Positions 12,200 through 15,150 of a DNA stretch of 46,788 bases are shown here, piece after piece (the first letter of the stretch is position 1; every line of letters starts with the position of its first letter). The notes beneath the pieces were generated by a model. It was not told where the DNA came from. It worked only from the letters and a program-made list of their open reading frames with translations, and made no database searches. The translations under genes were made by a program, and so were the position numbers. This DNA is from an uncultured Oscillospiraceae bacterium. GTDB lineage: Bacteria; Bacillota; Clostridia; Oscillospirales; Oscillospiraceae. The stretch is taken from the NCBI GenBank assembly GCA_947599875.1, contig CANQFV010000020.1, forward strand, positions 1 to 46,788, written 5' to 3'.

Positions 12200-12850
12200 T
12201 TATAAAGCGCCCATCGCGGCGTCCTCTTCCGCGCTGTCCCGGTTTTTGACCGCTCCCACCGGACAGACCGCAAAGCAATTTCCACAGTGTAGACAGTGAT
12301 TTTGCCGGATATGGTAGGGCTTTCCCGGCTCAATGCACCGCTGGGGACAGTTTTTCAGGCACTTGCCGCAGGCGATGCAGTTGTCCAGGATGACATATCC
12401 CTTCTGCGTCAGGTTTCCCGCGCCGATGGTATAACGCTCCCGGAAGATGGGGTTGACGCCGAGATTGAAATATTCGATCTCGGCGTCCCGGATCTCAAAG
12501 ACGATCCCCGCCAGGCGCCGGGTGTCGCCGGGATAGACGTTGGAGAGATAGGGTTGCTCTGTAAAGATCGTGTCGATCCACTTGTCCTGCTCGTCCTCCG
12601 GGACGGGAAACGCCCTTGCCGACAGGCGGACCATCTCTTTATACTTGGTGTACCCAAGCACCTGCACGCGCCCGTCACGCAGAAGCTCCTGGCAGAAGGC
12701 TTTTCCCTTTGCGGTGAAGAAGATCATCCTGTCCGGCTCGTAGTGAATGGCGGAGATATTGCGGATCTGCGGCGCGCCGTCCCGGTCCACGGTGGCAAAG
12801 GCCAGTACGCCCACATATTCTAACTTCTTCAAACAAGTTTGCGCGTCCAC
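12200..12850 (-). CDS. Flavin-reductase-like (PNPOx fold) protein fused to a 2x[4Fe-4S] ferredoxin
   Basis: The first 150 or so residues of this 216-residue protein look like a pyridoxamine-5'-phosphate-oxidase-fold flavoprotein (GVLAFATVDRDGAPQIRNISAI...FFTAKGKAF). The last 60 carry two ferredoxin motifs: Cys158/161/164/168 and Cys186/189/192/196, each CxxCxxCxxxCP. It should pass electrons between iron-sulfur clusters and a flavin. The start is GTG at 12850, with GAGGTG upstream inside the end of the truncated nitroreductase. It is the last gene of the radical SAM cassette and may supply electrons to the maturase (inference). Confidence 0.85.
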   Translation of the reverse strand: MDAQTCLKKLEYVGVLAFATVDRDGAPQIRNISAIHYEPDRMIFFTAKGKAFCQELLRDGRVQVLGYTKYKEMVRLSARAFPVPEDEQDKWIDTIFTEQPYLSNVYPGDTRRLAGIVFEIRDAEIEYFNLGVNPIFRERYTIGAGNLTQKGYVILDNCIACGKCLKNCPQRCIEPGKPYHIRQNHCLHCGNCFAVCPVGAVKNRDSAEEDAAMGAL

Positions 12851-13039
12851 TTAAAACACCTCGTTTTCGGCACAGCAATCAGCATTACGGACACCAATAA
12901 TGAACCTGCGCTGGCCGCCTCCGGCACTTGGCGCCCAGATCCCCGCCTCAATGATTGTTTTCATATCCTCGCGGGAAATCTGTTTGCTCTGATACTTTCG
13001 GATGGAGCGGCGGGTTTTCATAAGCTCTAAAAGCTCCAT
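12851..13039 (-). pseudogene. Truncated nitroreductase-family protein
   Basis: Only 62 codons remain. They match the N-terminus of FMN-dependent nitroreductases (MKTRRSIRKYQSKQISREDM...IIEAGIWAPSAGGGQ), whose full length is about 170-270 residues. After IIGVRNADCCAENEVF the frame ends in TAA, and the next gene starts at the very next base on this strand. No remnant of the missing two thirds lies between them, which suggests an internal deletion. The ATG overlaps the stop of the radical SAM gene (ATGA), so it is still translated. A short functional peptide cannot be excluded. Confidence 0.7.
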
Positions 13040-14070
13040 CAGACGACCTCCTTCCAGCACTGCGGGTCGGCCGCGTAAAAATCCCCGCTCGTCCCCTTGG
13101 CCACGGCTGGACAGCCCCGGCAATAGGGGAGAAGCTCACACTTGCCGCATTTGATAAATTTATCATACTCCCGGTACTGCTCCATTTCGCATACCCACAC
13201 ATCCGCCAGCCGGTCGGTGAACACATTTCCCACCTTGCGTTCTGCTACGCGGCGGCAGGCGTACACATCGCCGGTGGGCAGGATGGTGATATGGCAGTTG
13301 CCGCAGTTACACCCGCCGTAGATCATGCCATCCTTTGCGTCTGCGGGAATTTTGAAAGTCCCGGTTTCATACTCGTAGAGCGTCCAGAGATGGTCTTTTT
13401 TGTTAAAATAAGTCCGGCAGCCCTCCGCCTCATACTCTTTGAATTTTTTATCACATATCGCCAGCAGTTCCCGGTACTCCTGCGGCGTCATGGAGGCGTC
13501 CAGATCGCCGCCGCTGGGAACATAGCGGGAAAAGGCAAATACGTTTGCTCCCGCAGCCACCACCGCGTCGATGATCCCCGGCACTTCCATGCGGTTCGTT
13601 CTCGATACCGTGGTCATGATGACGCTTCGCATCCCGGAGCGGTTGATGCAGCCGATTTTTTCTATGGTGCAGTCAAAGGAGCCGGGCTTGCGAAACCAGT
13701 CGTGGGTCTGACGGAGGCCGTCCAGGGAGAGCTGGTACTTCTCGCAGCCGAAGAATCTCATCTCCCGGCACACCTGGTCGTTTAAGTGGAACGGGTTGCC
13801 CATGATGGTGAACGGAATACTATGTTCTTTGAACAGCGCCAGCAGCCGCCAGAAGTCCGGGTGCAGGATGGGGTCGCCGCCGGTGAGGTAGAAATACGGC
13901 AGACGACCGTAGACCTCACAGAAGTCCAGACAGTTCCAGAAGGTGTCCTCCATCTGCGTCCAGGCCATGCTTGTAAGCTCATGGCACTTATCCCCGGAGA
14001 AGATGTAGCAGTGCTTGCACCGCTGGTCGCACTCGTCTGTTAAGTGCCATTGAAAGGAGAAGTATTGCAT
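13039..14070 (-). CDS. Radical SAM/SPASM peptide maturase
   Basis: The 343-residue enzyme has the radical SAM cluster motif CDQRCKHC (Cys14, Cys18, Cys21) and the GGDPILHP segment that follows it. The C-terminal SPASM/twitch-type region is Cys-rich (GGCNCGNCH, VYACRRV, CGKCELLPYCRGCP, DPQCW) and would bind auxiliary [4Fe-4S] clusters. Such enzymes install thioether or C-C crosslinks in ribosomal peptides. It lies 68 bp downstream of the ACG-repeat peptide gene and is coupled to the nitroreductase remnant. The ATG has a GGGGGA site 5 bases upstream. That the upstream peptide is its substrate is an inference from adjacency and Cys content. Confidence 0.9.
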   Translation of the reverse strand: MQYFSFQWHLTDECDQRCKHCYIFSGDKCHELTSMAWTQMEDTFWNCLDFCEVYGRLPYFYLTGGDPILHPDFWRLLALFKEHSIPFTIMGNPFHLNDQVCREMRFFGCEKYQLSLDGLRQTHDWFRKPGSFDCTIEKIGCINRSGMRSVIMTTVSRTNRMEVPGIIDAVVAAGANVFAFSRYVPSGGDLDASMTPQEYRELLAICDKKFKEYEAEGCRTYFNKKDHLWTLYEYETGTFKIPADAKDGMIYGGCNCGNCHITILPTGDVYACRRVAERKVGNVFTDRLADVWVCEMEQYREYDKFIKCGKCELLPYCRGCPAVAKGTSGDFYAADPQCWKEVV

Positions 14071-14116
14071 ACGCGTCCCCCAAATCTATGGTAAATCGAT
14101 AAACGATGATTTTCCG

Positions 14117-14134
14117 CGGCCCCGGTCGGGGCCG
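14117..14134 (-). promoter_or_regulatory. Hairpin between peptide and maturase genes
   Basis: CGGCCCC (14117-14123) and GGGGCCG (14128-14134) form a perfect 7 bp GC stem with loop GGTC on the plus strand. On the minus-strand transcript the stem follows the peptide stop and is preceded by an A-run rather than followed by T. It more likely stabilises the peptide mRNA or attenuates than fully terminates. Confidence 0.55.
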
Positions 14135-14138
14135 TTTT

Positions 14139-14363
14139 TCATTTGTCCCCGGCTCCGCAGGCAGTCCCGCAGGCGGCGGGCTTTTCCTCCGGCTTGCCGG
14201 CGGCTCCGCAGGCGGCGGGGGCCTCGGCGGGCTTGTCTCCGGCGCCGCAGGCAGAACCACAGGCGGCCGGCTTTTCCTCCGGTTTATCGGAAGCGCCGCA
14301 AGCTGCTCCACAGGCGGAGGGATTGACGTCCTCAGACCAGGAATAGAGATTTAATAGTGCCAT
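14139..14363 (-). CDS. ACG-repeat Cys-rich peptide, likely RiPP precursor
   Basis: The 74-residue product has a 16-residue leader-like start (MALLNLYSWSEDVNPS), then an Ala/Cys/Gly/Pro-rich body with seven Cys at 18, 22, 35, 39, 52, 65 and 69. The repeat unit is ACGxACGAxDKPxExPA, present in three full copies and one degenerate copy at 52-62 where the second Cys is missing. Each full unit has CxxxC followed by CxxxD. The ATG at 14363 has AAGGAGG eight bases upstream. It is the first gene of the minus-strand cassette, with the radical SAM maturase next. From memory, radical SAM target peptides with ACGX or CXXX repeats have been defined computationally. I could not check membership. The product and its activity are unknown. 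Confidence 0.82.
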   Translation of the reverse strand: MALLNLYSWSEDVNPSACGAACGASDKPEEKPAACGSACGAGDKPAEAPAACGAAGKPEEKPAACGTACGAGDK

Positions 14364-14437
14364 ACTGTTTGCCTCCTTGACGTATTCAGGGCTTCCCCTG
14401 TATTGCCATTCTAAGACAGCCCGGAAGGCGGCGCAAG

Positions 14438-14463
14438 TACGCACTATTTTGTGGGATACGCAC
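14438..14463. promoter_or_regulatory. Direct repeats in the divergent control region (candidate HxlR operator)
   Basis: TACGCAC occurs at 14438-14444 and again at 14457-14463, 19 bp apart. In addition, CAAGTA (14434-14439) is inverted as TACTTG (14475-14480), which overlaps the -35 of the regulator gene. The spacing would suit a winged-helix dimer between the two divergent units. Confidence 0.4.
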
Positions 14464-14477
14464 CTTTTTGTAACTAC

Positions 14478-14506
14478 TTGACGGGGGAGGAACGGCACAT
14501 TAAAAT
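14478..14506 (+). promoter_or_regulatory. Promoter of the HxlR regulator gene
   Basis: TTGACG at 14478-14483 and TAAAAT at 14501-14506 are separated by 17 bp. Each matches consensus at five of six positions. Confidence 0.65.
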
Positions 14507-14543
14507 ATAATGTAACATTCAATTTTTATGCGGGAGGCGTTTT

Positions 14544-14873
14544 ATGAAAACGAAAGCCGAACTCATCCCCGAATGTCCCGTGGCGACAACGGTTCAGCTC
14601 ATCGGCAACAAGTGGAAGCTCCTCATTATCCGGAACCTCCTCGACCGCCCCTGGCGTTTTAACGAGCTTCAAAAGAACCTGGAGGGGATCAGCCAAAAGG
14701 TGCTGACAGACAGCCTGCGGTCTATGGAGGCCGACGGCCTCATCACCCGCACCGTCTACCCGGAAGTCCCGCCCAGGGTGGAGTACGCCCTCTCGGAGCT
14801 GGGCGAGTCCCTGAAACCGATCCTGGACGCCATGAGAGCCTGGGGAGAGGATTACAGGGCATCAAAACAGTGA
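14544..14873 (+). CDS. HxlR-family winged-helix transcriptional regulator
   Basis: The 109-residue protein has the HxlR signature: an N-terminal ECPVATTVQLIGNKWKLLIIRNLL, FNELQKNLEGISQKVLTDSLR, and a wing region ending in YALSELGESLKPIL. The Cys at the start of the motif is often redox- or electrophile-sensing in this family. It is transcribed away from the peptide gene across a 180 bp region carrying direct repeats, which suggests it controls the peptide/radical SAM cassette (inference). A GGGAGG ribosome site precedes the ATG. A hairpin at 14928-14971 lies downstream. Confidence 0.9.
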   Translation: MKTKAELIPECPVATTVQLIGNKWKLLIIRNLLDRPWRFNELQKNLEGISQKVLTDSLRSMEADGLITRTVYPEVPPRVEYALSELGESLKPILDAMRAWGEDYRASKQ

Positions 14874-15030: not shown

Positions 15031-15084
15031 GTCTCCACCAAAAAGAAAGACCTGCTTTCGCAGGTCTTTCTTTTTGGTGGAGAC
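15031..15084 (-). terminator. 25 bp perfect hairpin overlapping the 3' end of tRNA-Ala
   Basis: Arms at 15031-15055 and 15060-15084 are perfect 25-base complements around a 4-base loop that reads GAAA on the minus strand. The inner part (GACCTGC stem, then CTTTCTTTTT) is a normal terminator for the tRNA. The outer ten bases duplicate in inverse orientation the last ten bases of the tRNA gene, GTCTCCACCA. The nascent transcript could therefore pair the tRNA 3' end with the terminator instead of with the acceptor 5' strand. Confidence 0.8.
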
Positions 15085-15150
15085 GGACGGGATCGAACCG
15101 TTGACCTCCTGAATGCCATTCAGGCGCTCTCCCAGCTGAGCTACGCCCCC
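15075..15150 (-). tRNA. tRNA-Ala (anticodon GGC)
   Basis: Read on the minus strand, the 76-nt gene begins GGGGGCGTAGCTCAG and ends CGTCTCC-A-CCA. The anticodon arm is CCTGA-ATGGCAT-TCAGG with GGC in the loop, and the T arm contains GGTTCGATCC. The acceptor stem pairs with two G-U pairs. CCA is encoded. GGC reads the Ala codons GCC and GCU, which suits the high-GC codon use around it. Confidence 0.95.

Follow-up and report, generated by a model that had tools for sequence, protein, structure and literature searches.

A partly decayed ACGX radical-SAM peptide cassette in an uncultured Oscillospiraceae bacterium and its possible place in redox stress

The cassette and its peptide

We analyzed a 46,788-nt stretch of DNA from an uncultured gut bacterium of the Oscillospiraceae (the window: positions 1 to 46,788 of contig CANQFV010000020.1, assembly GCA_947599875.1), in which positions 12200-14873 hold a compact cassette of five genes. 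On the minus strand these are, in order, a Cys-rich repeat peptide, a radical S-adenosylmethionine (SAM)/SPASM maturase, a nitroreductase fragment and a PNPOx-ferredoxin fusion; the gene for an HxlR regulator is divergent. A preliminary description, made from the sequence alone, had seen here the architecture of a radical-SAM system for a ribosomally synthesized and post-translationally modified peptide (RiPP): peptide first, then a SPASM maturase and redox genes, with HxlR facing away. All the parts that it named are present where it placed them, and domain and family matches bear the architecture out. The features are as follows.

12200..12850, minus strand: PNPOx flavin domain fused to a 2[4Fe-4S] ferredoxin, 216 aa, GTG start (PF01243, PF00037, PF12838)
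12851..13039, minus strand: nitroreductase remnant, 62 aa (PF00881 positions 2-38 of 167; comparison with locus L094)
13039..14070, minus strand: rSAM_ACGX radical SAM/SPASM maturase, 343 aa (TIGR04340 581.8 bits, cut-off 400; PF04055 and PF13186 over cut-off)
14116..14135, minus strand: intergenic hairpin, downstream of the peptide stop and upstream of the maturase start (a terminator-like stem is listed here for the plus strand)
14139..14363, minus strand: ACGX-repeat precursor peptide gene, 74 aa (TIGR04341 target_ACGX 71.2 bits, cut-off 28)
14386..14402, minus strand: hairpin close to where the peptide mRNA is expected to begin (leader folding)
14408..14436, minus strand: predicted peptide promoter, -35 TTGCGC, 17 bp, -10 TAGAAT (read from sequence; absent from the consensus-scan list)
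14431..14482, no strand assigned: candidate HxlR operator, tandem boxes GTTACAAAAAGGTGCGTA and ACAAAATAGTGCGTAC, between divergent -35 hexamers
14544..14873, plus strand: HxlR/DUF24-family regulator, 109 aa (PF01638 113.7 bits, cut-off 20.8)

Since peptide and maturase both exceed curated NCBIfam cut-offs, the ACG-repeat peptide belongs to a known system, and the cassette is a new member of that named RiPP system in a partly decayed form. The peptide had been called unusual: its ACG repeats are real, but the proposed comparison with precursor models places it in an already catalogued family, the NCBIfam ACGX system. No other NCBIfam model matched it at E up to 1. As in that system, the two genes are adjacent; the window copy differs in having lost most of the nitroreductase and in being unlinked from a macrodomain and a sirtuin, SirTM, which are considered below.

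Relatives of the maturase come from one species-genome scan, in which 250 were confirmed; the best 80 by similarity to the window maturase were used (the named loci). Among the 104 maturase loci of a pooled set are the copy in the window (L001) and near-duplicates such as L003/L094, L025/L092, L031/L097 and L047/L095. With the window genome counted, 15 of 200 genomes from the same family carry a maturase relative, and 9 of 398 genomes from a phylum-wide draw exceed the maturase cut-off; the window genome itself holds a single copy over the rSAM_ACGX cut-off.

The window peptide consists of a short leader (MALLNLYSW) and seven ACG units, which contain all seven of its Cys. Its ATG start (14363-14361) lies 8 nt beyond a Shine-Dalgarno sequence, AAGGAGG (14378-14372), the strong ribosome site of its own that had been claimed for it; the stop codon occupies 14141-14139, and 68 nt separate peptide and maturase. 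An open reading frame with at least two CG units precedes the maturase in every one of the 96 pooled loci with at least 450 bp of upstream DNA. Upstream DNA is shorter in the other 8 of the 104, and a peptide is visible in 3 of these, making 99 peptides seen in total. The preliminary description had proposed peptide-maturase co-occurrence as a check; no close maturase without a peptide was found. Peptides of L005, L017, L020 and L028 terminate early, after CGA, possibly through frameshifts within the GC-rich repeats.

Start and stop could be assigned in 96 of the 99 peptides, and the leader follows the pattern [MVL]ALx[NDHQ][LI]xx[WV] in 86 of these. Stop codons of the 99 are TAA (74), TGA (23) or TAG (2); selenocysteine in the window peptide was considered and rejected, because its TGA stop follows the usual last unit. 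The sequences are under purifying selection: the nonsynonymous rate (pN) is below the synonymous rate (pS) in all 28 same-length pairs, which are not mutually independent, with a median pN/pS of 0.152. Among 90 distinct peptides there are 571 Cys, 544 of them in ACG and 562 followed by Gly, spaced mostly 12 (219) or 3 (207) residues apart.

This pairing bears on whether the peptide is a substrate at all. Unmodified CX3C doublets could bind metal, and the product might then be a plain Cys-rich thiol or metal-binding peptide, with the radical SAM enzyme acting elsewhere. We consider this highly improbable given the adjacent genes in 96 of 96 loci and the naming of both families by NCBIfam as one ACGX system.

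Many SPASM peptide maturases serve exported peptides, and the variation in repeat number (2 to 10 Cys per peptide) would suit an exported antimicrobial or signaling RiPP whose redox genes are incidental neighbors. This too seems improbable: the window leader is very short and without a double-Gly site, HxlR and flavin/Fe-S redox genes are constantly coupled to the pair, and none of the five cassette genes encodes an exporter, a protease or an immunity function (the absence of exporter and protease had been pointed out before; the neighbors of the relatives are partly annotated).

The maturase and its predicted chemistry

Cysteines C14, C18 and C21 of the CX3CX2C motif are unchanged across 28 aligned maturases, all 28 of which are matched by the NCBIfam model of SbtM (TIGR04082). 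For the window maturase and those of L133, L139, L140, L096 and L091, SbtM is the second-best NCBIfam model (146-190 bits), followed by heme b synthase or TIGR04053 models (98-151 bits). Among outgroups it drops to third place in L142 (by 0.7 bit), and to seventh and eighth in L143 and L144, respectively. By model score, then, SbtM is the nearest characterized relative of the maturase; the kinship rests on such scores rather than on a tree, because none of 299 phylum genomes holds an SbtM over cut-off. SbtM, like the proposed enzyme, acts on Cys: its substrates are described in PMC11002830 as losing four hydrogens to form a thiooxazole. The window maturase differs in scoring 146.1 bits against a cut-off of 350, with only profile positions 198-515 of 516 aligned.

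Within the peptides, Ala at -1 (96%) and Gly at +1 (98%) are nearly fixed around the Cys, which would fit a modification local to that residue. The prediction that we advance, tentatively, is a thiooxazole, for which the odds seem to us a little short of even. On that prediction the enzyme would act on the ACG-repeat Cys, probably on each Cys and its preceding residue, as SbtM does.

The same peptides also suggest a different product within an otherwise identical module. Asp stands at +4 (84%), forming CX3D, in 304 of the 364 Cys that do not begin a CX3C doublet. This would fit ranthipeptide-like thioether crosslinks between Cys and Asp, with a loss of 2 Da per link, as reported in PMC9413430 for PapB; the product would be a string of small rings rather than a thiol-rich buffer. 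The repeated CX3D spacing is a likeness to the PapB-type ranthipeptide freyrasin. However, 207 of the 571 Cys open a CX3C doublet, in which the +4 position is taken by Cys and not by Asp; the window peptide has Asp there for 3 of its 7 Cys; and Asp at +4 is no better kept than Lys at +5 (83%) and less well than the residues next to the Cys. The PapB model (NF047865, cut-off 340) gives the window maturase 54.2 bits, and over the six ACGX maturases with score tables it gives 49-62 bits for five and 73 for L096. Of the two live chemistries the thioether seems to us the somewhat less likely, well short of even odds, and the same holds for the module built upon it. The loss of 2 Da per crosslink that had been proposed for mass spectrometry has a counterpart that is at least as likely, 4 Da per Cys.

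Foldseek comparison of the AlphaFold maturase model with solved structures returned BlsE, SkfB, SuiB, anSMEcpe and PqqE as best matches, which support a radical SAM/SPASM fold and no more than that.

A thiooxazole would bring the ACGX peptides close to the captophorins (bufferins, oxazolin, fontiphorin), which are likewise multi-repeat xCG peptides and are tied in PMC12668002 to oxidative and metal stress; thiooxazoles in EGKCG-repeat peptides are described there as binding Cu. The captophorins differ in being made by MNIO enzymes, mainly in Pseudomonadota, with EGKCG as the commonest repeat, whereas the ACGX peptides come with a radical SAM enzyme in Clostridia-type genomes. Pfam matches of the five cassette proteins include no MNIO domain; no genome-wide search for one was made.

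Two further radical SAM proteins were noted. A more distant, 462-aa maturase at L141:1480-3177 scores 240 bits to rSAM_ACGX and 190 to SbtM, the same model order as in the ACGX maturases, and precedes what appears by eye to be a Nif11-like leader peptide with a Cys-rich tail, possibly a sister RiPP system. A relative in L160 (G371:C4:136547-137551) has one in-frame TGA in the search table.

Downstream redox genes and the control region

The gene after the maturase had been called a truncated nitroreductase. At 62 aa, covering positions 2-38 of the 167 in PF00881, it is a deletion remnant, most of the gene being missing by comparison with the full gene in L094. This slot is variable. In the 89 loci whose downstream DNA extends to 2.3 kb or more, the occupant is a full nitroreductase (60 loci), a quinone reductase (20) or a broken nitroreductase (7, window included), and 2 loci have neither; 7 further loci are too short for the survey. 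In none of the 96 loci do both lie downstream, although other nitroreductases are encoded nearby in 9 of 22 quinone-reductase loci, and L065 has one upstream. On the maturase tree slot content changes six times, and at least five times by starred branches (95/80 mark; quick method). A nitroreductase or quinone-reductase match is present in 55 of 57 named loci, and a PNPOx-ferredoxin match in 47 of the 57 named loci that extend 5 kb or more downstream.

The PNPOx-ferredoxin fusion had been put forward as an unusual electron-transfer partner. The fusion is real; the role as partner is weakened, both because similar proteins occur near SirTM in 6 of 34 stretches that lack the cassette and because the post-maturase slot switches between nitroreductase and quinone reductase. 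Such switching would suit a role in detoxification under stress no less well than one as a partner dedicated to maturation.

A divergent HxlR gene is found in 56 of the 57 named loci for which 1.7 kb or more of upstream sequence is available. The window protein has a sole Cys, Cys11, and exactly one Cys occurs in 77 of 78 distinct matched HxlR segments of relatives. In the Bacillus subtilis members HypR, YodB and CatR, an N-terminal Cys senses hypochlorous acid, quinones and diamide, as summarized in PMC6943732, where the nitroreductase YodC is assigned to these regulons; B. subtilis HxlR itself is presented there as more aldehyde-specific, controlling aldehyde detoxification.

The repeat-bearing control region mentioned in the preliminary description proves to contain, between the -35 hexamers of the two divergent promoters, a tandem pair of operator-like boxes. 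The predicted hxlR promoter, TTGACG-17-TAAAAT on the plus strand, was listed by the consensus scan. This candidate two-box pattern is present in 56 of 79 intergenic regions. Allowing up to three mismatches, the first box occurs once in the genome, in the cassette itself; a regulon sharing this operator was accordingly rejected for want of a second match within that limit. An operator-like palindrome outside the cassette was seen in 1 of 35 SirTM stretches (L187).

The peptide gene is flanked by hairpins. Leader folding covered the 41 of 79 regions that fitted the search pattern (35 distinct), and all 35 fold as one hairpin of at least four pairs, with a median z of -3.58 against mononucleotide shuffles; RNAalifold found no common structure on the leader alignment. 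Of the peptide-maturase spacers, 14 of 99 fell outside 46-179 nt and were excluded; 76 of the remaining 85 fold with z < -1.5 (again mononucleotide shuffles). Rfam returned nothing within 12200-14873 at E up to 1. Just past hxlR lies a tRNA-Ala (ggc; 15075-15150, minus strand), a possible insertion landmark.

SirTM, the macrodomain and the proposed function

What the earlier description missed is the wider neighborhood of the relatives. SirTM and/or a macrodomain is found near the cassette in 44 of the 57 named loci whose downstream DNA reaches 5 kb or more, both in 39, and downstream on the same strand in 42. In L028 the macrodomain exceeds the cut-off of NF003163, protein-ADP-ribose hydrolase, and the sirtuin beside it matches the solved chain 5a3a (SIR2 family protein) at 7.6e-71. 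We take this chain to be Streptococcus pyogenes SirTM and the macrodomain of the relatives to be of the zinc type. By our estimate a random 13-kb stretch would contain SirTM in well under 1% of cases. At the level of genomes, SirTM is present in 13 of 15 with ACGX against 51 of 185 others (Fisher p 8.7e-6, kinship not corrected).

In the window genome whole-genome searches placed SirTM and the macrodomain on contig C1 and the cassette on C20. In a SirTM tree of 88 rows, 46 of the 53 ACGX-linked rows fall in one 52-row clade (support 97/99). Its other members are five unlinked rows and the SirTM of the window genome, which sits with 27 linked rows in a 29-row subgroup whose support (91/91) is under the 95/80 mark. 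The ACGX label changes 13 times on this tree, at least nine times by starred branches, against 27.7 when shuffled (0 of 500 as low). These placements suggest that the window's cassette and its SirTM/macrodomain were once together and later parted. SirTM linkage marks no clade of maturases, because on their tree it changes 12 times against a shuffled mean of 11.9.

The pair also has a life outside ACGX. Of the 34 SirTM stretches that lack the cassette, five come from ACGX genomes and several end at contig edges; a macrodomain is found in 24, an HxlR in 10 and a PNPOx-ferredoxin-like protein in 6. L164 has, in order, HxlR, a small PNPOx-type protein (by eye), macrodomain and SirTM; L174 is similar, with further genes. 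From these and like stretches it follows that a redox/ADP-ribosylation set exists without the peptide, and that the peptide/maturase pair joins it in ACGX loci. Inspection by eye of SirTM stretches without ACGX gave no convincing equivalent Cys-rich peptide.

Several individual loci deserve mention. In the window's genome a second radical SAM protein directly precedes macrodomain and SirTM (L103:6655-7584), and by eye a trio of radical SAM protein, macrodomain and SirTM follows the ACGX cassette in L004 and L012. L082:2786-3625 encodes a divergent SirTM (41% identity, very long branch) between PNPOx-ferredoxin and a ferredoxin-nitroreductase. L060 and L066 are ACGX loci on contigs labeled Prevotella and Succinivibrio; the L060 SirTM groups with Butyrivibrio, so mis-binned contigs of metagenome-assembled genomes (MAGs) are likely for both.

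The extended SirTM operon of staphylococci and streptococci comprises GcvH-L, LplA2, Zn-Macro, SirTM, OYE and LLM. The ACGX relatives resemble it in combining macrodomain and SirTM with oxidoreductases, and differ in carrying a Cys-rich peptide and a radical SAM enzyme instead of a lipoyl carrier and its ligase; the window genome has no GcvH, and the pair is not on the window's contig. GcvH-L is named in PMC11490716 as the only known SirTM target, and SirTM/Zn-Macro are described there and in PMC4518038 as modulating oxidative-stress responses in other organisms. PF01597 (GcvH) has no match at E up to 0.001 in the window genome, which is 100% complete by record. GcvH is missing from 10 of 13 genomes with ACGX and SirTM and from 43 of 51 with SirTM only (53 of 64 overall); genomes with ACGX are therefore not unusual in lacking it, and the notion of the peptide as its replacement is weaker for that. 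The ACGX peptide is nevertheless a candidate, and only that, for a SirTM target in the window's family. The fullest version of this idea, in which an anaerobe's multi-thiooxazole thiol peptide, made by radical SAM chemistry, would also be ADP-ribosylated by SirTM and freed by the macrodomain as a redox carrier replacing lipoyl-GcvH-L, strikes us as a long shot.

Taken together, the gene content, family membership, conservation, selection and linkage lead us to favor, by a modest degree, the view that the cassette is an intracellular, HxlR-controlled ACGX radical-SAM RiPP module for thiol-redox or electrophile stress. HxlR would control the divergent promoter through its single N-terminal Cys. 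The peptide would be made in abundance from its strong ribosome site, on an mRNA with hairpins on either side of its gene, and modified by the maturase into a multivalent soft-thiol product that may buffer electrophiles, oxidants or a soft metal such as Cu(I). The flavin and Fe-S partners (nitroreductase or quinone reductase, PNPOx-ferredoxin) would remove or reduce the same stressors, and the SirTM/macrodomain pair, linked in most relatives and unlinked in the window, may adjust the response by reversible ADP-ribosylation.

Several points weigh against this proposal. The SirTM/macrodomain link is missing in 13 of the 57 loci, close relatives included, and in the window, and 51 of 64 SirTM genomes lack an ACGX maturase, so that SirTM does not depend on ACGX. 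The counts over named loci describe a non-random sample, because they are the best 80 of 250 and 55 of the 80 come from 'Lapin' MAGs (presumably rabbit gut). The regulator falls under the NCBIfam cut-offs for redox regulators (RrpB 123.6 against 175, RrpA 90.4 against 185). The maturase lies far under the SbtM cut-off, with the first 197 profile positions unaligned; its AlphaFold model is weak (mean predicted local distance difference test score 60); and the ranthipeptide motif CX3D is common, with 304 of the 364 eligible Cys completing it. None of the cassette genes was identified as one for metal handling, and no such gene was looked for elsewhere.

In the open-licence full-text literature we found no paper on the ACGX system by accession or name, none on SirTM together with radical SAM, and none combining radical SAM, RiPP, macrodomain and sirtuin; among the titles listed for the string 'ACGX' none concerned this system, one use being the letters of a GenBank accession.

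As a family assignment the cassette is ordinary; its interest lies in the testable link to redox stress and ADP-ribosylation that its relatives provide. That neighborhood gives the ACGX pair a testable function, in redox or electrophile stress alongside SirTM and macrodomain, and the system offers a test of whether anaerobes build thiooxazole peptides by radical SAM chemistry. Since 53 of the 64 SirTM genomes in the sampled family lack GcvH, the linked operon also offers concrete candidates for SirTM targets. Were the peptide one of them, there would be a SirTM target besides GcvH-L, and a RiPP under ADP-ribosyl control.

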